48,457 nucleotides of DNA from a virus. Position 1 is the stretch's first letter, and each line of letters opens with the position of its first letter. The notes under the pieces are model-generated. The model made no database searches and had not been told where the DNA came from. It worked only from the letters and a program-made list of their open reading frames with translations. Position numbers and translations under genes: made by a program. The DNA lies in the IMG/VR virus record IMGVR_UViG_3300027969_000007, positions 1 to 48,457 of that record. One strand, 5' to 3'. Below, in pieces: positions 1 through 48,457 of the stretch.

Positions 1-127
1 ACTTAAAAGATATCTATCCATTAAATTTTTCCCTTAAAAAAGAAACGGCAAGACCACCTAAAAGACCAAAAACCAATGGAGCAATAATTAATTCAATCAC
101 TTATTTTTCCTTTCAATCAGTACAATG
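1..127. repeat. Terminal direct repeat, copy 1 (circular assembly overlap)
   Basis: Bases 1-127 are identical to bases 48331-48457. The length of exactly 127 matches a common maximal assembler k-mer, so this is best read as the overlap left when a circular molecule is written as a line, not as a biological terminal repeat. Removing one copy gives a 48,330-bp circle. The repeat holds the 28-codon membrane peptide gene and the start of the gene annotated at 48040-48351. Confidence 0.97.
14..100 (-). CDS. Tiny membrane peptide, 28 aa
   Basis: GTG start at 100, preceded on the minus strand by GAAAGGAAAAATAA, a good ribosome site. The product begins MIELIIAPLVFGLLGG, continues hydrophobic, and ends in a charged SFLREKFNG tail, so it looks like a single-pass membrane peptide. 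It lies between the PP-loop enzyme gene (ends 113) and the gene that starts at base 21 (48351 in the other copy), and its stop overlaps that start. The same gene reads as 48344-48430 in the repeat. Function is unknown; a holin- or spanin-like role cannot be told from the sequence. Confidence 0.55.
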   Translation of the reverse strand: MIELIIAPLVFGLLGGLAVSFLREKFNG

Positions 128-9008: not shown

Positions 9009-11486
9009 TTGGAAGAAATAAAAAAACAGGCTTTGCGTGTTCGTGGACAGGGTTTATCGGTGTTCTCTACAAAGGTAGATAAAACCCCAGTAATTAAGCG
9101 AACTAACCGCATAGTTGAGCTTAGAGCTAACCCACTATCAGACCTTGAAATTGAGATAGATTTCAGCCATGCAAATGTAGCAGGGATCGCCATCAACTGT
9201 GGCCCAGTTGTGGGTAAAAATAAGGACTTGGAATGCCTTGATATCGACTGTCCAAAGGTAGCACTTGACTTTCTTCCTGACTTGGAAGCATCAAGCAAAG
9301 AACTACACGATAAGCTTTGTGGATGCGTGGAAACAACCCCATCTGAAGGTTTGCACATTTTCTACTACTTGCCATTAGGTAAATCAAAATGCCGTGAATT
9401 GGCGGTAATGTCTACAGAAAATGGCAAGAGATGGCTAGCCGAAGCTAAAGCTAAAGGATCGACTAAAAAGATTGCTCCACCATTGATTGAAACAAGGGGT
9501 GCGGGTGGATATGTGGTTGGATTCTATTCTCAGGCAGTCTCAAAAATTGATGGATTAGTTAAGCCATATAAAATGATTCATGGTGATGTGGCAACTATTC
9601 CAACCCTGACTGCGGATGAGCATGAATTTCTAATGTCATTTGCCCAATCTTACGATCAAAAAGCAGCAAAGAGGTTCATCGAGTTAAATAAAGAACCTTA
9701 CCAGTACAAAGAAATAGGAAAGAAAACTGCGTTAGATCAATGGAGAGCGGAAACTTCATGGCCCGAAATTCTTCCAGATTCCTATCGGGTTGTTGAAGTC
9801 AGGCATGATTACTTTTTAGTTTGGCATCCCGATTCGTCAGGAAGAGAACCTAACGCAATTGCAGGGTGCAAAAATGGTGGCATGGATCGCTATTGGAATT
9901 TTAGTCCATTAGACTGGAGATTGAGTCCAAACATACCGCTAACCAAAGATTATGTTTACTGCATGAGTAGAGGTTGGCAGCCTGGAAGTAGAGAGTGGAA
10001 AACATTTTACGCACAGGTGTTTGCAAAGTATTCAATAGACAAAATTGAAGACGAACCTGTGAATGAATCGAGGTGGGATTTCCTTGAAACAACAAAGTCA
10101 GGTAAAGTTAAACAAATTAGAACTGTAGACATTGTGCCTGACGATGCCATTTCTTTTCCAGGCTGGATCGACACATACATTGACTACTGTATGCGAAACG
10201 CACTATATCCAGAGAAGAGAATCGCTGCTGCATCTGCATTAGGTATGTTCTCCGCTTTAGTGGGAAGATCCATCATGGGGCCAAATGAACTAAAGCTTAA
10301 CCTATACATTGTTGTTCTTGGTTTGACAGCTTCGGGCAAAGATTTTCCACGAAAATTGAACGCTAGAATATGTATGGAAATTGACAACGCTAGCCTCTTG
10401 ATGACGAAGGTAGGTTCAAGAGAAGGTCTTGAAGAAAAGGTAATTCAAGGCCCAAAATTTTTGATGGCTGATGAAGGTGCATTTGATCTTGAGAAAGCTA
10501 AATCGGGTGACACAAGGTTCAATGATGTTATGGGAACAATGCTAGAACTGTTTACATCTAACTACATTAAGAGGCGAGCTAAAGCGGGTGATGCGGATTC
10601 AGAAAATTTTATTCGCTATCCATTCCTTTCCATTATGACTTCATCGACCCCCGAAGAGTATTTCAAAGCTTTATCGCCTAAGATGCTTCGGTCAGGTTTT
10701 TACAATAGATTGTTGATTCTACAATCTGCAATTCGAGGCAGAATGAATCTTCGGGGTATGTCAGTATCAGAACCTATTCCAGAATATTTGGTAGAGGTTG
10801 CTGCACGATTGATTGCCATGAATGAGAATCTTGTTCCTGGGGTTATCAAAGAATTTATGCAAGATACTAAGCTTGATGCACTTGGAAATGCACCACTAAA
10901 CCAGATTGAAAAGGATTCAAAGGTTCTTTTACTTGATGAAGATGCGTTGGAATTCTTTCAAACTCAAGTATGGGAAAATGATGATTTGTATTCCAAGTAT
11001 CAGAAGAACAGCGAAGAAGAAAAAGCTTCTTCATGTGCTAGACTTCCTGAGTTGGCCTTGAAAATAGCTTGCCTGTGGGAATTAAGCCAAGACATAAACG
11101 CTGACACAATTTCTCTAGCTGGAGTTACTTCTGGATTTAGATTCGTGCGTGAAGTGAATAAGAGACAGACCGCAAATACAGTTATGGTATCTGATACTAA
11201 GTTTGGTGAAATCACGGACAAGCTACTAAACATGATCAAGGATTCACTAAACGAAATCGAACCAGATGTGTATGGTGTAAAAATGATTGATGCTAAGAGG
11301 CATCTTAGGAAGATCGTACACAGCGGGCAATCGGTTGACGATGCAATTCGATACCTTCAAGATTGCGGTGAGATTTCAATCAGAAAAAGCAGGGATAAAA
11401 ATGGTGCTGGATCAATGTACATCGTTATAAATGACCAATCACCTTCTCGATCCCAATCCGAGGGATCGACATCAGAGCTAGGTTAA
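9009..11486 (+). CDS. Prim-pol/DUF3987-type primase-helicase
   Basis: The 825-aa product joins an N-terminal primase-polymerase domain with a C-terminal ATPase. Prim-pol marks are AGIAINCGP (58-66), LECLDID with catalytic acids (74-80), TPSEGLHIFYY (110-120) and ETRGAGGYVVG (161-171). The ATPase part has a Walker A-like loop GLTASGKD (438-445) and Walker B FLMADEG (484-490), as in DUF3987 proteins, and a C-terminal region that may be a winged helix. It likely primes and unwinds at the origin. No other polymerase is visible. Translation appears to begin at TTG (9009) after GGAATAGG. Its 3' end overlaps the convergent terminase gene by 62 nt. Confidence 0.85.
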   Translation: MEEIKKQALRVRGQGLSVFSTKVDKTPVIKRTNRIVELRANPLSDLEIEIDFSHANVAGIAINCGPVVGKNKDLECLDIDCPKVALDFLPDLEASSKELHDKLCGCVETTPSEGLHIFYYLPLGKSKCRELAVMSTENGKRWLAEAKAKGSTKKIAPPLIETRGAGGYVVGFYSQAVSKIDGLVKPYKMIHGDVATIPTLTADEHEFLMSFAQSYDQKAAKRFIELNKEPYQYKEIGKKTALDQWRAETSWPEILPDSYRVVEVRHDYFLVWHPDSSGREPNAIAGCKNGGMDRYWNFSPLDWRLSPNIPLTKDYVYCMSRGWQPGSREWKTFYAQVFAKYSIDKIEDEPVNESRWDFLETTKSGKVKQIRTVDIVPDDAISFPGWIDTYIDYCMRNALYPEKRIAAASALGMFSALVGRSIMGPNELKLNLYIVVLGLTASGKDFPRKLNARICMEIDNASLLMTKVGSREGLEEKVIQGPKFLMADEGAFDLEKAKSGDTRFNDVMGTMLELFTSNYIKRRAKAGDADSENFIRYPFLSIMTSSTPEEYFKALSPKMLRSGFYNRLLILQSAIRGRMNLRGMSVSEPIPEYLVEVAARLIAMNENLVPGVIKEFMQDTKLDALGNAPLNQIEKDSKVLLLDEDALEFFQTQVWENDDLYSKYQKNSEEEKASSCARLPELALKIACLWELSQDINADTISLAGVTSGFRFVREVNKRQTANTVMVSDTKFGEITDKLLNMIKDSLNEIEPDVYGVKMIDAKRHLRKIVHSGQSVDDAIRYLQDCGEISIRKSRDKNGAGSMYIVINDQSPSRSQSEGSTSELG

Positions 11487-12981
11487 ACGCATCTGCAAGG
11501 TCAGGAGAGTGCTTGAGTCGTCTTTTCATCATGTCCTTAGATTCAACCACTCTTCTTCCGTTTGTATCCACAATGTATACTGGTGTGCGTAACTCTTCCA
11601 TCATTCTTTCACGCATATGCAACGGAAGATGCCCGATAGATACTTTACCCTCCATAGCAAGTTCTGCTGCCTCAAACCAAAGAGCGGATCTCATGTTCGG
11701 GAACTCCCGCCACCTTGGTGCTTCACCAGATGAATTAATGCCGTAAAACATATAATCACCCTTGTTATCGACCACACCACCACCAACACCACCCTCATCA
11801 ATAAGCACAGGGATCTTGTATTGCGATTGCCTTGGGTTCTCATATTTTTGGCAATACTCTTTAATCTTTTCCGAGAACTCTTTCGTAGACAATCCACGGT
11901 ACTCCTTTGCATCTATGATGCAACATCCATGCCTGACAACCAAACAGGATCTATCGTCACCGAACCTTGCAGGGTCAGCACCGATTTGAACCACCCAATC
12001 TTTGTTAAGCTGAATCGGATCAAGGATCTGTTTAAGTGCCAACGCACCCCATACCGAGTTGATAGCTTTACTAGGGTATCTTCCAAGAACTTGAATGTCA
12101 AAAAGCGGATCTTCAACCATGTAGTTTTTATCATTGAAGGTAAAGAACCCTGGTTCCAACTCTTCGCCTTCTCTAGCGGATCTACATTCGTTTTTAATGC
12201 GGTTCTCTACATACTCATAGTTAATAGCACCTGGAACAAGATCGGCCTTAAAAGCCACATTAGGATGGTCTAAAGCAGATAGGTGAAACACTTTCCAGTC
12301 AGGTGAATTCTCAGCAAAATAAGCAGGGGATGAGGCATCGTATGGATTGAAAATACAGAACCATAAACAGTTTTCTTTGCTTGCTGAAAGCATCGACTCT
12401 GCTCTTTCCCAGAATGTGGGTTCAATACCAGATGCTTCGTCAAACAGGATGCACAAACCACCAGCGGAATGTCTACCTTGGAAAGCATCAGCTTTTTGAG
12501 CGGTTAAACCTTGAATGTAATGCGAGGGATTCTTTTCAAGACGATTAGCCTTGGGCATCCAGTTTGGATCTCTTGGTCTAACCCTGCGTAGTTCTTTGAA
12601 CACACCATCTTTGATCTGCTGGGCAACAGGTGCTGAAATCAAAACTTCGGATGGAGTAAAGTGATCGTGAAACCATGAAGCAATAACAGCACACAAAAAA
12701 GTTTTGCCTTGATTGTGTGCGGATCTAACTAGAACTTTTCTTGCACCATTGGCAACCGAATCAAATATTTCCATCTGCTGGGGGGTCAGGGATATTCCGA
12801 GGTATTCGCAATACTCCCCTGGGTTTTTCGGTATCACTATAGTCTTCTGCTTCTCCCGATTCACCCTCTTGACCTCTTGGATTTCCGAGAGTTTCCCCTG
12901 CAATACTGGACTCGATAAGACCCTTTGCCATTTCTTTTGCAAGTTGTTTGTTGAGGAGTTTTTGGAGTTCTTGCTCATCAT
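11425..12981 (-). CDS. terL: Terminase large subunit
   Basis: The motor ATPase and nuclease that packages DNA. It has Walker A RSAHNQGKT (near residue 90), Walker B ILFDEASGI, then a nuclease domain with IGADPARFGDDRS, VLIDEGGVGGG and HSPDLADAFNLALM at the C-terminus. I place the start at ATG 12981 (or the adjacent ATG 12978) because AAGGA lies just upstream; a TTG at 13005 is possible. The start lies deep inside the terS-like gene, giving a 221-nt out-of-frame overlap. The 3' end overlaps the oppositely oriented primase gene by 62 nt. Confidence 0.93.
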   Translation of the reverse strand: MMSKNSKNSSTNNLQKKWQRVLSSPVLQGKLSEIQEVKRVNREKQKTIVIPKNPGEYCEYLGISLTPQQMEIFDSVANGARKVLVRSAHNQGKTFLCAVIASWFHDHFTPSEVLISAPVAQQIKDGVFKELRRVRPRDPNWMPKANRLEKNPSHYIQGLTAQKADAFQGRHSAGGLCILFDEASGIEPTFWERAESMLSASKENCLWFCIFNPYDASSPAYFAENSPDWKVFHLSALDHPNVAFKADLVPGAINYEYVENRIKNECRSAREGEELEPGFFTFNDKNYMVEDPLFDIQVLGRYPSKAINSVWGALALKQILDPIQLNKDWVVQIGADPARFGDDRSCLVVRHGCCIIDAKEYRGLSTKEFSEKIKEYCQKYENPRQSQYKIPVLIDEGGVGGGVVDNKGDYMFYGINSSGEAPRWREFPNMRSALWFEAAELAMEGKVSIGHLPLHMRERMMEELRTPVYIVDTNGRRVVESKDMMKRRLKHSPDLADAFNLALMSIPRIGIEKVIGHL

Positions 12982-13219
12982 CTCGTTCCTTATTATTGCG
13001 TTCAATTATCCATTGCATGGCTCGCCAGTCTTCACTCCCATGTTCATGGATAACCTGTTGCATGGCAATGGTTGCCTGTGCTTTGGCTTTGACCATCTCC
13101 TTCTTGTGCCAAGGTTCAAGATCCCTTCTAGAGATGCCAAAAGCTTTCATTGCTAGTTTAAAGTCGATCCCACGCTGGATATTTTCCAGCATTTCATAGA
13201 AACTATCGGAGTCGATCAT
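12761..13219 (-). CDS. terS: Probable terminase small subunit
   Basis: The 152-aa product has an N-terminal helix-turn-helix-like segment (DFKLAMKAFGISRRDLEPW), a helical middle with WRAMQWIIERNNKE, often seen in small terminases, and a loose Gly/Pro-rich tail. It would recognise the packaging site and load TerL. The ATG overlaps the stop of the 63-aa gene upstream as ATGA. Its last 73 codons overlap the start of terL in a different frame. Assignment rests on helical pattern and position directly before terL. Confidence 0.7.
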   Translation of the reverse strand: MIDSDSFYEMLENIQRGIDFKLAMKAFGISRRDLEPWHKKEMVKAKAQATIAMQQVIHEHGSEDWRAMQWIIERNNKERDDEQELQKLLNKQLAKEMAKGLIESSIAGETLGNPRGQEGESGEAEDYSDTEKPRGVLRIPRNIPDPPADGNI

Positions 13220-13407
13220 GATTTTGGAAACTCCTTGCCCCCTGGGAATTCAACATTTTCGGGTGTTTCTGGGTCGATCAACATTCTCATAAGCTCAAGT
13301 GTCTCAGAGATATAGATCAAACTCGCTGCTATTGACTGAGAAGGTTTTCCTTTTTCATAGGCAGCAATGGCTTCTACCATCCAGTCTGCCCCAGCTTTAT
13401 TTAACAT
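13216..13407 (-). CDS. Hypothetical protein, 63 aa
   Basis: A small helical protein (MLNKAGADWMVEAIAAYEKG...) with a GAAAGGATGC ribosome site upstream and an ATGA overlap into the terS-like gene. No family recognised. As first gene of the terminase operon it faces a divergent 67-nt gap (13408-13474) where AT-rich boxes such as TAGAAT on this strand and TAAAAT on the other could act as -10 elements; I could not match convincing -35 boxes. Confidence 0.65.
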   Translation of the reverse strand: MLNKAGADWMVEAIAAYEKGKPSQSIAASLIYISETLELMRMLIDPETPENVEFPGGKEFPKS

Positions 13408-13474
13408 ATTGCATCCTTTCTAAAACAAGGTAAAATAGGTAACAGTATTCTAGCAAAAAGCAAGAGGAATTTCG

Positions 13475-13990
13475 ATGGCAGATTTAGTAGGAGCTATAGA
13501 AAAACTGAAGAAACTTTTAGAAGACCGAGCCAAGCGGGTTGGCAGGGCTACGAATACTAGTCCAGCACCTGATCCAGATATTACCGCTACTAGCCAGTCA
13601 ATAATATATAAACCGCCATCTGCTTGGATGAAGTCTCTTGAATACTTCCCTATGGCAAAGGCTCAGTCAGGTTCGGTTGTAATGAGGGCTAGAGGCCCAA
13701 ATATCGGTTATATTTACCCAAGGGTAGGTAAGGCCACTTTTAATAAATGGGTGGCAAATAACTGGAGAGGTGGCTTCATATACTGGTATGGATCGCCTAG
13801 CCTAAAGGACTACTCAATCATTGCTAGAAAAGCTCGACCATTCAGAAGAGGCGGGTCAGGTAGACTTGGAATTGTAGCAGTAAGAAACAGGAAAGTTCGA
13901 GGAACGATGTATAACTCCATACCAAAAAATGTAAGGGATAGGGGTAGAGCTTCTGCAAGAATTTCTAAGAAAAACAACTGGAGGTTATAA
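13475..13990 (+). CDS. Basic protein with KTSC-like segment, 171 aa
   Basis: The middle of the product (NIGYIYPRVGKATFNKWV ... GGFIYWY) resembles the short KTSC fold found in phage and bacterial proteins of unclear role. The C-terminal third is very basic (FRRGGSGRLGIVAVRNRKVRG, ISKKNNWRL), so nucleic-acid binding is plausible. AAGAGGAAT precedes the ATG. It forms a two-gene plus-strand island between the terminase genes and the structural genes, and its stop overlaps the next ATG as TAATG. Confidence 0.6.
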   Translation: MADLVGAIEKLKKLLEDRAKRVGRATNTSPAPDPDITATSQSIIYKPPSAWMKSLEYFPMAKAQSGSVVMRARGPNIGYIYPRVGKATFNKWVANNWRGGFIYWYGSPSLKDYSIIARKARPFRRGGSGRLGIVAVRNRKVRGTMYNSIPKNVRDRGRASARISKKNNWRL

Positions 13991-14295
13991 TGTACTTAAA
14001 TCCATACTATCGACACATTCAAGAAATGAAACGATTCTATGTCGAATCCATTACCAAGGAAGACATGGCTATCGTAAAGAGTTGCCTAGTAAGAAAAATT
14101 CGGGGTGGCAACATGAAAGCGGTAGAACTGTTTATGAAGTTCACCGAGTGGCAGAAAGAACTGGATGCTGCTAGTGATGCTAGACATGAACTTCAAACCA
14201 TCATGGGTTCACCTACGGACGGGTTGATGAAATCGCTTCGCCCTGGTTCAATAAATATTTCTGTTGAAAAGCTTGAAGATAAGAAACAGGCTTGA
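13990..14295 (+). CDS. Small terminase-like or regulatory helical protein, 101 aa
   Basis: The product contains ITKEDMAIVKSCLVRKIRGGNMKAVELFMKFTE, a pattern common in short phage and bacterial proteins related to small terminase helices (a 'teed..aiv..li..a..Gd.kA...l' repeat). It might be an accessory packaging protein; the 12761-13219 gene is the better terS by position. Translation is coupled to the upstream basic protein by a TAATG overlap. Downstream, after 11 nt, comes the folded element at 14307-14400. Confidence 0.6.
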   Translation: MYLNPYYRHIQEMKRFYVESITKEDMAIVKSCLVRKIRGGNMKAVELFMKFTEWQKELDAASDARHELQTIMGSPTDGLMKSLRPGSINISVEKLEDKKQA

Positions 14296-14306
14296 TATAT
14301 TAACAT

Positions 14307-14400
14307 TGTCCGAATGGAGCTAGGGCTTGTTTTCACAATTTCCTGAGACTCATCTCAACCGAAGTAGAATTGTGTCAGGTTGAGAGGTTTCATTCGGACA
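14307..14400. other. Folded palindromic element with pseudoknot potential
   Basis: TGTCCGAATG (14307-14316) pairs perfectly with CATTCGGACA (14391-14400) and can be extended by five more pairs including G-U. Inside, CACAATT (14334-14340) pairs with AATTGTG (14368-14374), and TCTCAACC (14353-14360) pairs with GGTTGAGA (14378-14385). The order is crossed (a-b-a'-b'), the arrangement of an H-type pseudoknot. A nested alternative is the hairpin TGAGA (14344-14348) with TCTCA (14353-14357). It fills the gap between two convergent genes and has no T-run on either strand, so it is not an ordinary terminator. It could be a structured RNA, an unusual bidirectional terminator, or a DNA site for packaging or recombination. 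Confidence 0.55.
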
Positions 14401-14402
14401 TC

Positions 14403-15317
14403 TTAAATAGGTTCAGGCTCAACAATATTTAAAGTAAAAACTACTGATGCTTCTGATGTAGTTCCTTCTGGAATATAACCAGAATTAAAACTAAAAACCA
14501 CCAGATGATTCACCTTAATATTTACTGATCCATAAACAGTACCTGTGAATCTGTTTCCACCTTTTTGCTGATAACCATTAATCAACATAGATGCTGTTGC
14601 TTCGGTTTTCTTGAAATCAGAAACCTTGTATTTATAATAAAGAATTCCATTTCTTTCCGCTCTAAAATCCATGTATTTAGTTGTGCCGTCACTAAGCATA
14701 GTAACTTGCAATGGTGGAGTTTCTTTAACCCCATTACCAGTATAAGTTCCAGTATAATCACCTGTTCCTGTTTGGTCTAAAAAAGTAAAGCCATACGGAA
14801 ATGTTGGGGCTGGAGTTGGGGGCGGGGTTGGTGGAGGGGTTAAAGAATTTCCAATTGTATCTACCATTATCGCTGGTATAAGTTGATCTGGATCAAAATC
14901 AACAAAAAAACTTTCTCCAGAAGCTAATTCTTTTACTTCCGTGTAATCATAATATCCAATCAATCTATCATTGATGGTATGATTGTAAATTATCAAGTAT
15001 CTAAAAGGCCCAAAAAACTGACCTTCTGGGCAAGTGAAATCAAGGTTTTTTAAAAACAATGTGTATACACCTTCTGATTCCTTGTATTTTGTTTTTTCTA
15101 AAACATAACCACCATCTGGATATGAAAGACTACCAAAAAGTTCTGGAAAGTCCGTACTGTTCCAATTTGTTTTATTCATGGGGAGTGGCAAATATATCTG
15201 TTCGATAGGGTCGTACTCTCCAGCAGATAAAGCCATTTTTAAAACATCCACATTTAATAGATGCTGTCCAGCTTCAAAATCTGTTGCAAAGCAAGGAAAC
15301 GGAATTAATGTTGCCAT
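14403..15317 (-). CDS. Virion-type protein with Pro-rich linker and Ig-like C-terminal domain
   Basis: The 304-aa product has an N-terminal domain containing YLIIYNHTINDRLIGYYDY and LASGESFFVDFDP, a pattern frequent in phage fibre or baseplate-associated proteins, then a linker of PPPTPPPTPAPT (about residues 160-175) and a beta-rich C-terminal part. The ATG at 15317 follows AAAGGG by 8 nt and is preferred to a TTG at 15323. It is the last gene of the late block; its stop is 3 nt from the folded element at 14307-14400. Probably exposed on the particle; function unproven. Confidence 0.65.
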   Translation of the reverse strand: MATLIPFPCFATDFEAGQHLLNVDVLKMALSAGEYDPIEQIYLPLPMNKTNWNSTDFPELFGSLSYPDGGYVLEKTKYKESEGVYTLFLKNLDFTCPEGQFFGPFRYLIIYNHTINDRLIGYYDYTEVKELASGESFFVDFDPDQLIPAIMVDTIGNSLTPPPTPPPTPAPTFPYGFTFLDQTGTGDYTGTYTGNGVKETPPLQVTMLSDGTTKYMDFRAERNGILYYKYKVSDFKKTEATASMLINGYQQKGGNRFTGTVYGSVNIKVNHLVVFSFNSGYIPEGTTSEASVVFTLNIVEPEPI

Positions 15318-15332
15318 AAACAATACCCTTTA

Positions 15333-24010: not shown

Positions 24011-26980
24011 TTAACATAAAAGCATACCGCCACCAAAAACATCCATAAATTGTGTAACACCAGAGGACTCTGTGCTTTGGATTGCTGTGAGATAATGAAA
24101 ACCCGCATTGACCTGAGCATTTACGGTCATCGGTCTCCTTGAAAATCCAGCAAAACGGATATCGGAAGTTCCCATTCCGAAAGCTCCTATTGTTGAATCA
24201 ACAGCGTAGTTGCAATTACCCGGTATATTAAGCGTATTTATTATTGCGAACTGCCCACTGGCCGTAAATGTCTCGCCATGAATACCCGTTATAAAGTACA
24301 TTCTTATCACACCTATTCCATTATTCCACTCTCTAGTACCACCATTATAAGTGTGTGATCCAGAGTATATAATTTGAGACATCGACCTTAAAACTTTATT
24401 ATTAAAGTTCCAAACCATTCTGTTTAAAAGGGAGTCTGTAAACTGAATTGAAGCGTTGCTTCTTACTGTTCCTATGTATCTTCGTGTGTTATTGATACTC
24501 TTAACATAAACTCCGTTTAATAAAGACAAATCATTAGCCCTAGTAGTGTCGTTAGTCCACGCAGCACCGTACTCTAGCGTAACTGTAGATCCACTTACAT
24601 AGGCAAATATATCGTAATTTGCATTAGCTGATAGACCTGAAGTAGTTAATGATAATTGGGAAAAACTATAAGATCCCCAACTTGTTCCACTGTAGAGGCT
24701 AATAACATTTCCATTGTATGGCGTAAAGTAAAGAGTTGTTTTCGATGTCTGATCTGTAGTGGAAACAGGAACGCCACTTTCGAGCGTCAATCTCCCAGAC
24801 GAAAATATTCCTTGTGTTTCCCAAGTTGGTGCTGATGTTCCGTTTGATCTTAAAAGTTGACCCGCTGTTCCCGCTGCAAGAAAACTTGTTGCACCAGATC
24901 CAGTATTGTAAGGAATTTGCCCTGCACCACCGCCAGCAAGATTAGTTGCAGTTGATGCTGTTCCAGTCAATGCTGCTGTAATTGTACCAGCGGAAAAATT
25001 TCCAGAAGCATCCCTTTGAACCACATAAGAAGCAGTATTTGCACTTGCTGCGTTAATACCAATCGTACCTGTTGAAGTTATCGTTCCACCAGTAATTGGT
25101 GATGTGGTTGCAATTGATGTTACTGTTCCAGAAGCCGAAGAAGTACCAGCACCTATTGCAGTTCTAAAGGTTGCAGCATCTAAAGCAGAAGCAGTATTAT
25201 CAGCGTTAAATCTAGGAAATGTAATTGCAGTAGGATTAGTAAGAGTAAACAAGTTTGCACCAACAGTAGTTGCACCTAAACTTGTTCTTCCTGTTGCTGC
25301 TACAAGGTTAGTAGATCCACCATCCCATTGCAATCTTTGAGTGTATGCCGAATCCCAGTTTGTTTGAGAAGATGTTGTTGGGATTGAATAACCTGAAGTT
25401 AATGTTACTGCTAAAGTTCCTGTTGTGGTAACAGGTGTACCGCTTACCGATAACCCTGTTGGAACAGTCATTGCGACAGAAGTAACAGTTCCCATTGCTT
25501 TATAATCTGAAATAAGAACAGGGTTTTTACTGGAATCGCCTATCCATACTTTCTTATCGACAATATTTGCAGCTAGTTCGCCTTCTAAAAGCGAAACAGG
25601 GGAAGCAGAAGTTGTGCTGTTTCTTTTAATTCTTATGGTGTTTGTAGGAGTCGTATAGGTAAATAAAGTGTTAGCAACATTAGTTCCAATAGAAGTGGTA
25701 ACTAAAACGCTTGCAGTACCTACAGTTCCAGAGGGTGTAGTAGCAGTAATAGTGGTTGAATTTACAACTGTTACGCTAGTTGCTGCAACACCCCCAATTG
25801 TAACACCTGTTGCTCCTGTTAAATTAGCACCTGTGATTGTTACGCTAGTTCCCCCTTTTGCTGTTCCAGTAGACGGAGAAACGCTAGACACAGTAGGAGG
25901 TGACGAACCTGTGTACTCAAACGCACCAATTGTGGGTGTAGATGCTGATCTTGCTGTACCTCTTTGATCTAGTCCACTCACAGGTGATGCGTTAGTTGCT
26001 GCTGCATTACCAGCACCAATCGCTGAACTCCCTGCGGGAATCGCCATTGTTAAAGTTGTGCCACCATTGTTAGCCAGCGAGCCAAGTGTGCCTAATGATG
26101 CAGCAGATACATCGCCAGACCAGTTGTAAGCACTACCCACAATGTTAGCCACTTTAGCCACTGGAATACTTGAACTGTTGTATCCACCTACATCTGCATA
26201 AACTCCAGTATTACCAGAAATAATTGAATTTTTAATTGTTAGTGAGCAATACTCACTATGATAAATTCCACCCCCAGCAGGGCGAAGACCAGAGGGGTCG
26301 GTTGCAGTATTACCAGAAATAGTGCTTGACAAAATAGCAGACGACACGGATCCGCCTGTGCTTATAGCCCCAGATTTAAGTCCAGTATTTCCATTAAATG
26401 TGCAGTTATAAATTGTAAAGGAAATATTACCGCTATAAGCCGTACCAGTGTTTCCAGAAAATGTGCAATTACCAACAGTTGCAGTGCTTGATCCAGTTGC
26501 CCAAATCCCACTACCACCTGACAATGCTGTATTAGATGCAAATGTGCAATTAGTTACTGAAAATTGGCCTCCAGAATAAATTGCTCCACCTACATTTGTT
26601 GCATAACATCCATTAAATGTGCAATTACTAACTGTGAGTGTAGATCCTGAGTTAAAAATACCAGCACCAATAGTTGCAGGATATGTTCCTGTTGCTCGAC
26701 CATTAGCAATTGTTAATCCACTTATAGAAAAAGTTAAGCTAGCATTAAGATTAAACACCCTATAAAGATTATTTCCGCTAATAGTTAAAGAGCTTAATCC
26801 AGGCCCTGTGATCGTCATGCTTTTGGTAAGTGCTGGCAATGCTGATGCAAGTGTAATCGTACCTGTTAGTCCAGTAAAAGTAATCGTGTGACTACCAGTT
26901 AATGCGTTAAGGTCTGTAATCGCTTGTCTAAGCGTTCCAGCACCCGAATCGGCAGTAGAAGTTACATTGATCGTTGCCAC
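24011..26980 (-). CDS. Large tail fibre protein with beta-helix and IPT/TIG domain, 989 aa
   Basis: GTG start at 26980 with GGAGGTACA upstream; it overlaps the previous stop (TAGTG). Order of parts: a right-handed parallel beta-helix of the outer-membrane 'anchor Q' kind (TSTADSGAGTLRQAI..., repeated TVSNCTF/TVGNCTF rungs, to about 360); an IPT/TIG Ig-like domain (PPTVSSVSPSTGTAKGGTSVTITG, about 361-440); an IRIKRNS...GELAANIVDKKVWIGD fibre head motif (about 447-490) also seen at the start of the next fibre; then Gly/Ser/Thr-rich fibre repeats and a C-terminal domain. Likely binds the host surface. Confidence 0.8.
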   Translation of the reverse strand: MATINVTSTADSGAGTLRQAITDLNALTGSHTITFTGLTGTITLASALPALTKSMTITGPGLSSLTISGNNLYRVFNLNASLTFSISGLTIANGRATGTYPATIGAGIFNSGSTLTVSNCTFNGCYATNVGGAIYSGGQFSVTNCTFASNTALSGGSGIWATGSSTATVGNCTFSGNTGTAYSGNISFTIYNCTFNGNTGLKSGAISTGGSVSSAILSSTISGNTATDPSGLRPAGGGIYHSEYCSLTIKNSIISGNTGVYADVGGYNSSSIPVAKVANIVGSAYNWSGDVSAASLGTLGSLANNGGTTLTMAIPAGSSAIGAGNAAATNASPVSGLDQRGTARSASTPTIGAFEYTGSSPPTVSSVSPSTGTAKGGTSVTITGANLTGATGVTIGGVAATSVTVVNSTTITATTPSGTVGTASVLVTTSIGTNVANTLFTYTTPTNTIRIKRNSTTSASPVSLLEGELAANIVDKKVWIGDSSKNPVLISDYKAMGTVTSVAMTVPTGLSVSGTPVTTTGTLAVTLTSGYSIPTTSSQTNWDSAYTQRLQWDGGSTNLVAATGRTSLGATTVGANLFTLTNPTAITFPRFNADNTASALDAATFRTAIGAGTSSASGTVTSIATTSPITGGTITSTGTIGINAASANTASYVVQRDASGNFSAGTITAALTGTASTATNLAGGGAGQIPYNTGSGATSFLAAGTAGQLLRSNGTSAPTWETQGIFSSGRLTLESGVPVSTTDQTSKTTLYFTPYNGNVISLYSGTSWGSYSFSQLSLTTSGLSANANYDIFAYVSGSTVTLEYGAAWTNDTTRANDLSLLNGVYVKSINNTRRYIGTVRSNASIQFTDSLLNRMVWNFNNKVLRSMSQIIYSGSHTYNGGTREWNNGIGVIRMYFITGIHGETFTASGQFAIINTLNIPGNCNYAVDSTIGAFGMGTSDIRFAGFSRRPMTVNAQVNAGFHYLTAIQSTESSGVTQFMDVFGGGMLLC

Positions 26981-48039: not shown

Positions 48040-48351
48040 TCATAAATCGTGAAGTTTATTATCATCGGTTAAAGCTGAATCATCATCAGTACCTTTAAGA
48101 AGTTCTGCTAACGCAATGTAAGCAGCAGCATCTTCGAGGGTATCTTGATGATACCCCTGAGAAAGTCTGCAAAGCTTAAGCAGGGCCATCATTACTGCCA
48201 CCTCATATGCACTAACCTCACGCTTTAAGAAGTTAGTCCAAGCATCAGCAATACGCTTCAAATTAAGCTCTGGAGCATCGTATTGATTAGCTCTTTCAAC
48301 AATGTGTTCAGTACAGCGTGAGAAGAATTCACTTAAAAGATATCTATCCAT
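48040..48351 (-). CDS. DUF6378-like phage protein, 103 aa
   Basis: MDRYLLSEFFSRCTEHIVERANQYDAPELNLKRIADAWTNFLKREVSAYEVAVMMALLKLCRLSQGYHQDTLEDAAAYIALAELL has the pattern of DUF6378-like proteins seen in many phages (role unknown). AAGGGAAAAATTTA lies before the ATG at 48351. On the circle it is the last gene of the minus-strand cluster that begins at 3487, after the 28-aa membrane peptide. Confidence 0.65.
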   Translation of the reverse strand: MDRYLLSEFFSRCTEHIVERANQYDAPELNLKRIADAWTNFLKREVSAYEVAVMMALLKLCRLSQGYHQDTLEDAAAYIALAELLKGTDDDSALTDDNKLHDL

Positions 48352-48457
48352 TAAATTTTTCCCTTAAAAAAGAAACGGCAAGACCACCTAAAAGACCAAA
48401 AACCAATGGAGCAATAATTAATTCAATCACTTATTTTTCCTTTCAATCAGTACAATG
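48331..48457. repeat. Terminal direct repeat, copy 2 (circular assembly overlap)
   Basis: Identical to bases 1-127. Contains the start of the 48040-48351 gene and a second copy of the 28-aa membrane peptide gene (48344-48430). On the circle this copy and the first are the same DNA. Confidence 0.97.

Follow-up and report, generated by a model that had tools for sequence, protein, structure and literature searches.

A predicted kissing-loop RNA in freshwater phages, a candidate noncoding gene related to the CyVA-1 family

The window analysed here, a virus record of 48,457 bases, carries between two convergent genes a folded element that is best explained as a phage noncoding RNA gene of ∼93 nt on the + strand: a diverged homologue of CyVA-1 (RF02965) with a kissing-loop junction, which would have its own promoter and act in trans. 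We give this reading as a whole a probability of about two in three. Among its parts, common descent with accepted CyVA-1 members is established by comparison of sequences and covariance models, and the same comparisons show that several unrelated phage lineages carry a predicted CyVA-1-like RNA. A host-type RNA appears to have been taken up or kept repeatedly by phages.

The CyVA-1 family itself is known, as are structured RNAs common to cyanophages and bacteria (PMC10665884). As far as our tools show, three things are new: phages have a diverged branch of the family that scores under the Rfam cut-off, phages of other lineages hold Rfam-grade copies, and the kissing helix covaries strongly. 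In the searched literature, a single paper names CyVA-1, for cyanobacteria, with nothing for phages and no function; it recorded the RNA at low abundance in the metatranscriptome of halite cyanobacteria (PMC7002113).

Genomic setting

A stretch of ∼127 bases at the start of the window (1–127) is repeated at its end (48331–48457), which makes a complete genome likely, either circular or terminally repeated. The following features of the window surround the element or are mentioned with it:

13990–14295, + strand: upstream gene of 101 aa, with its stop at 14295
14273–14301, + strand: promoter-like box TTGAAG-17-TATATT with TG before the -10 (consensus match only), predicted start ∼14308
14403–15323, − strand: convergent downstream gene of 306 aa, with a weak phrog_644 match
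24011–26980, − strand: 989-aa protein with a TIG domain (PF01833), probably structural

As the sequence-only reading had described, the element occupies the gap between the stops at 14295 (+) and 14403 (−) and has no T-run; none follows the 3′ strand of its outer stem (14391–14400). The 101-aa protein is without PHROG or Pfam match, and from the style of its sequence it looks like a small terminase subunit. The large terminase subunit (TerL) of the window belongs to phrog_2. Among 50,697 named phage records we found no relative of the window by DNA, and the 101-aa protein likewise had no relative among named phages; TerL, helicase and portal gave only distant matches, none with a host. ARAGORN found no tRNA or tmRNA in the window.

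Structure of the element

The RNA fold of the 107-nt sequence has an energy of -35.2 kcal/mol, compared with -22.0 on average for shuffles (sd 2.9; z = -4.5), and none of 200 shuffles is as good. The outer stem of 10 bp (15 with G-U) and the two crossed pairings proposed earlier from the letters alone are all present where they had been placed. The parts of the element are as follows:

14307–14316 with 14391–14400, + strand: outer stem P1, 10 bp, extendable with G-U to 14321/14386 (15 bp)
14320–14321 with 14386–14387, + strand: inner P1 pairs, an invariant C-G and a U-A or U-G
14324–14328 with 14345–14349, + strand: strands of hairpin P2, paired at 14324 and 14326–14328 with 14345–14347 and 14349; the next-to-outermost position is purine-purine
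14329–14344, + strand: P2 loop (L2), GUUUUCACAAUUUCCU, 16 nt, holding the kissing strand CACAAUU at 14334–14340
14353–14360 with 14378–14385, + strand: stem P3, 8 bp, TCTCAACC with GGTTGAGA; two-sided compensatory changes in six of the eight pairs
14361–14377, + strand: P3 loop (L3), GAAGUAGAAUUGUGUCA, 17 nt, holding the kissing strand AAUUGUG at 14368–14374
14334–14340 with 14368–14374, + strand: crossed (kissing) helix, CACAATT with AATTGTG, of which 14335–14340/14368–14373 covaries in phages and bacteria

Since the crossed helix joins the P2 loop to the P3 loop, it amounts to a kissing contact between two hairpin loops of a three-way junction. The nested P2 is a third hairpin that was absent from the earlier description. 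That description had instead included a TGAGA/TCTCA hairpin competing with one crossed pairing, so that the element could switch fold. The window sequence allows this hairpin, but several relatives can make just three of its five pairs; with the competitor not conserved, the proposed switch is not supported.

Purine riboswitches are also three-way junctions in which two hairpin loops kiss. The likeness would be one of architecture only: the loops of the window RNA are far larger, it has neither a conserved junction core nor a same-strand gene downstream, and Rfam gives no match to the riboswitch.

Relatives and covariation in the phage group

When viral contigs were scanned by pattern and by protein, more than 20 related ones from fresh water proved to have the element at the same place between convergent gene blocks. 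It is ungapped (107 nt) in nearly all of them, at 79–100% identity, and one (L052) has an extra base. The RNA is often far better conserved than its flanks: 95% against 59% and 61% for L015 and L021, and 99% against 60% and 71% for the window and L022. This argues that the RNA is a unit of its own. The genes around it change. An additional 272-aa gene lies between the homologue of the 101-aa gene and the RNA in four relatives (L021, L022, L014 and L037), and the downstream place of the 306-aa gene is taken by a different gene in other members.

A separate observation concerns the block beyond the RNA (window 14403–15323; same side in L021, L024, L037 and L164), possibly of tail type, which is swapped among relatives. 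Because the block just past the RNA differs between them, the RNA lies at a boundary of gene exchange.

Pairing was assessed for 29 pairs in 17 distinct phage sequences, covering P1 (14308–14316/14391–14399), inner P1, P2, the crossed helix (14335–14340/14368–14373) and P3. All 493 cells hold standard pairs. Changes on both sides occur in nine pairs (two in P1, one in the crossed helix and six in P3), and covariation reaches 0.240, compared with 0.111 for shuffles (0/500 as high); sliding the partners by one column lowers pairing to about half. Compensatory changes in both crossed helices among homologues, which the sequence-only reading had named as the check for an RNA, are therefore present. 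P2 is paired throughout the phage relatives yet never varies, so covariation within this group neither supports nor refutes it, and its support comes from the place of the first hairpin in Rfam CyVA-1.

The purine-purine position of P2 (14325/14348; A2 columns 30/53) flips jointly, being mostly G/A and A/G in L009, L014 and L047/L059. It may be a covarying non-standard pair.

The kissing helix across the family

We then consider the kissing helix in a MAFFT alignment of 33 phage, Acidobacteria and cyanobacteria copies, which was not fitted to that helix. Here, 91.4% of cells are paired and covariation is 0.634 against 0.284 when shuffled (0/500), while slid versions pair in 22–57% of cells. 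Phages have six fully complementary versions (i.e. ACAATT/AATTGT, GCAATT/AATTGC, GCCGTT/AACGGC, GCTGTT/AACAGC, ACCGTT/AACGGT and ACTGTT/AACAGT). The cyanobacterial copies mostly have a shorter core of about four pairs, and some have none. These patterns show, at the level of sequence covariation, a predicted P1-closed three-way junction whose P2 and P3 loops (16 and 17 nt) dock by a kissing helix of 6–7 bp. The helix is common to the window group and the family, whereas the nested RF02965 structure lacks it, as models of this kind cannot hold pseudoknots.

Homology with CyVA-1

The window element has no Rfam match at gathering level. In a relaxed search of all 4,227 Rfam families, RF02965 was the best family for the window (23.1 bits, E 0.0059), L033 (22.3 bits) and L059 (21.2 bits), with 77/77 positions aligned in each and the window match ungapped. 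All three scores fall below the curated cut-off of 41.4 bits, so that the relaxed match by itself is only a lead. Other relaxed matches (mir-90, snoRNAs and, on the other strand, SAM-II) were set aside, being far under their cut-offs and inconsistent between relatives.

The gap is bridged by intermediates. Scanning bacterial genome contigs with the shared pattern gave 53 stretches, of which about 14 are real by inspection, all from Acidobacteria (Terriglobia); the others were judged chance. Where RF02965 detects a Terriglobia copy, the score is 38–63 bits. A scan of viral contigs added more than 20 further phage loci, and 11 of the 14 sources tested among these other viral contigs pass the RF02965 cut-off, at 42–55 bits. 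Scanning viral contigs with a 7-base spacing yielded one real new copy (L123), the remainder looking like coding sequence. In the opposite direction, R1, a covariance model trained solely on the phage group of the window, matches, among others, L161 (E 8e-14), L175 (2e-11), L174 and L123 (both 2e-10), L159 and L169 (both 6e-5), all six of which are above the Rfam cut-off, together with two Terriglobia copies, L079 (2e-7) and L095 (2e-5); the latter is the same copy as L114, which scores 62.9 bits with RF02965. Matches through intermediates in both directions establish the homology. Three candidates were rejected: L158 is a chance match inside a reading frame, and L182 and L183 (Pseudomonadota, sub-cut-off) lack the motif.

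The window element resembles CyVA-1 in the order P1-P2-P3, in the 8-bp P3, in the position of P2 along the model and in its loops, i.e. a 16-nt L2 starting with GUUUU and a 17-nt L3 with GAAGnAGA...CA, the CyVA-1 loop being GAAGGAGAaCGACGUCA. Both motifs are present in the window group, with a GUAG variant in some relatives. Alignment shows that these apparently unpaired bases (GUUUU in L2, GAAG-n-AGA plus CA in L3) are conserved across bacteria and phages, a few phages having variants like GUAG. The two also differ. Instead of the inner 6-bp P1 of the family (model 1–6/72–77), at whose positions the window, L033 and L059 have several non-standard pairs, there are 2 bp, an internal loop and a separate outer stem of 9–10 bp; an outer stem is thus present but shifted relative to the model. 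In addition, the window element has GAAGUAGA where GAAGGAGA is common. The low score (23 bits) and the missing inner P1 count against the best explanation, and for both reasons we call the element a diverged homologue rather than an Rfam-qualified member. The earlier suggestion of a new structured RNA is accordingly right about structure and about a functional crossed pairing, both strongly supported, while the RNA is not wholly new, being a diverged homologue from a known family.

Strand and expression signals

On the + strand, the paired cells include 26 U-G, one G-U and no A-C. The constant pair 14328/14345 supplies 17 of these 27, and the other ten are changes. A-C cells would be expected if the minus strand were the RNA; their absence beside the G-U pairs indicates that the RNA is the + strand, read rightward.

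The promoter-like box (14273–14301) ends 6 nt before P1. Its -10 (TATATT, TATAAT or TACAAT) is kept 6–7 nt before the stem in relatives with a different upstream gene (L021, L022 and others); in L021, TTGCCT-17-TATATT stands at the same place. Counted over the window region, promoter-like sites are no more numerous than in shuffles, so the argument for a promoter rests on this conserved position. Because the -10 box and the RNA are kept while flanking genes change, and the RNA far exceeds its flanks in identity, we take the gene to be independent. Two points weigh on the other side: the promoter is a consensus match, and no terminator-like site was found after the RNA. In other phages, a TATAAATA box lies directly before P1 in L161 and a CTAAATA box, whose frequency in the contig is not above chance, occurs in L123; both could be read as T4-type late promoters.

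Distribution and neighbourhoods

Above its cut-off, RF02965 was found in 12 of 146 sampled cyanobacteria and two of 149 Acidobacteriota. Under strict filters, which may lose weak matches, it was found in none of 398 Pseudomonadota; strict filters likewise gave none in 199 Planctomycetota and 198 Bacteroidota, two samples in which there was no control match either. The phage carriers are diverse. TerL is of the phrog_38 type in L159, L163, L165 and L166, versus phrog_2 in the window, and the contig of L123 encodes a gp32-type protein and is T4-like. The label T4-like is given to L161 and L174/L179, the last of them on a 145-kb contig, solely because their promoter box or neighbours look similar.

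Terminase genes (TerL or TerS) lie within ∼3 kb of the RNA in the window (11425–14400) and in L159, L163, L165 and L166; the copies in T4-like contigs and bacterial chromosomes are away from such genes. Overall, bacterial and phage copies adjoin varied genes, and this argues for action in trans. T4-like cyanophages encode the Rfam RNAs wcaG, manA, PhotoRC-II and glnA, described as cis-regulatory (PMC10665884). They are comparable in that they, too, are structured families common to phages and bacteria. By contrast, the window RNA precedes no gene in the same direction and is absent from that list.

Function and alternative readings

We propose that the element is most likely an independently transcribed, trans-acting RNA. 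Transcription would start from its predicted promoter, whose -10 box ends 6–7 nt before P1, and the product would act in trans. The kissing contact would fix the arrangement of the two loops, so that their invariant bases could bind a single protein or RNA partner of the host (or phage) during infection. More speculatively, and with a rather low chance of being right, unrelated phages may each carry their own version of a kissing-loop host RNA to take over one conserved host process. As several copies sit beside terminase genes, a step in the switch to late genes or packaging might be involved, and for a phage RNA such a role would be new.

Four alternatives were considered, in the order of a 3′-UTR element, a packaging RNA, a terminator and a DNA site. 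In the first, the element would be the structured 3′ end of the terminase-region mRNA, i.e. a cis-acting stability element or RNase-resistant end with no promoter of its own. It begins 12 bp past a + strand stop and before a convergent gene, has the right strand sense and is followed by no terminator, and in this phage group it always lies behind the small-terminase-like operon, all of which makes such a role possible. We nevertheless consider it unlikely: homologues in other phages and in bacteria adjoin unrelated genes, the -10 box stays when the upstream gene changes, and loop bases are conserved beyond the need of a simple exonuclease block.

The clustering of phage copies by terminase genes (the ∼3 kb neighbourhoods described above) could also point to a DNA-packaging RNA, similar in role to the phi29 pRNA. 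This is very improbable given the homologues remote from terminases in bacterial chromosomes and T4-like contigs, and no Rfam packaging-RNA family matches at either the gathering or the relaxed threshold. Nor do we expect, at comparably long odds, the unusual bidirectional terminator between convergent operons that had been suggested for this position. A convergent-gene setting and a strong stem would suit one, but both strands lack a T-run and a terminator-like site, a promoter-like box lies upstream, G-U pairs are confined to one strand, and termination needs neither a kissing helix nor conserved loop bases. Finally, a DNA site for recombination or packaging had also been suggested earlier. 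Such a signal, working as a folded single strand of DNA, would fit the border past which neighbouring genes differ, and several phage copies do lie within ∼3 kb of terminase genes; it is scarcely credible for an element with G-U and never A-C on the + strand, as for one RNA strand, and with homology to an RNA family whose bacterial copies lie on chromosomes away from phage genes.

For the trans-acting RNA that we favour, its presence in several unrelated phage lineages, as a small gene whose kissing-loop fold covaries, suggests a role important enough for phages to carry it. The phage copies make CyVA-1 function testable, because deletions in phages, pull-downs and transcriptomes of infection are less demanding than experiments with Acidobacteria. 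A family model rebuilt with the kissing helix and the phage sequences would also catch the diverged branch that the Rfam cut-off misses.

Some further observations concern the bacterial copies. In Terriglobia the RNA often follows an alpha/beta hydrolase gene or precedes OsmC-like or PA2169-like genes (by eye; L068, L072, L081, L088, L106, L112; L069, L095; L077, L117), a neighbourhood that is possibly stress-related. Cyanobacterial CyVA-1 copies are often in tandem (L149/L138, L144/L152, L146/L153 and L154/L155), and a second element with a larger loop and a start like GTGGAGTTTTTATCGCTTCCTCCAC lies directly 3′ of several of them.
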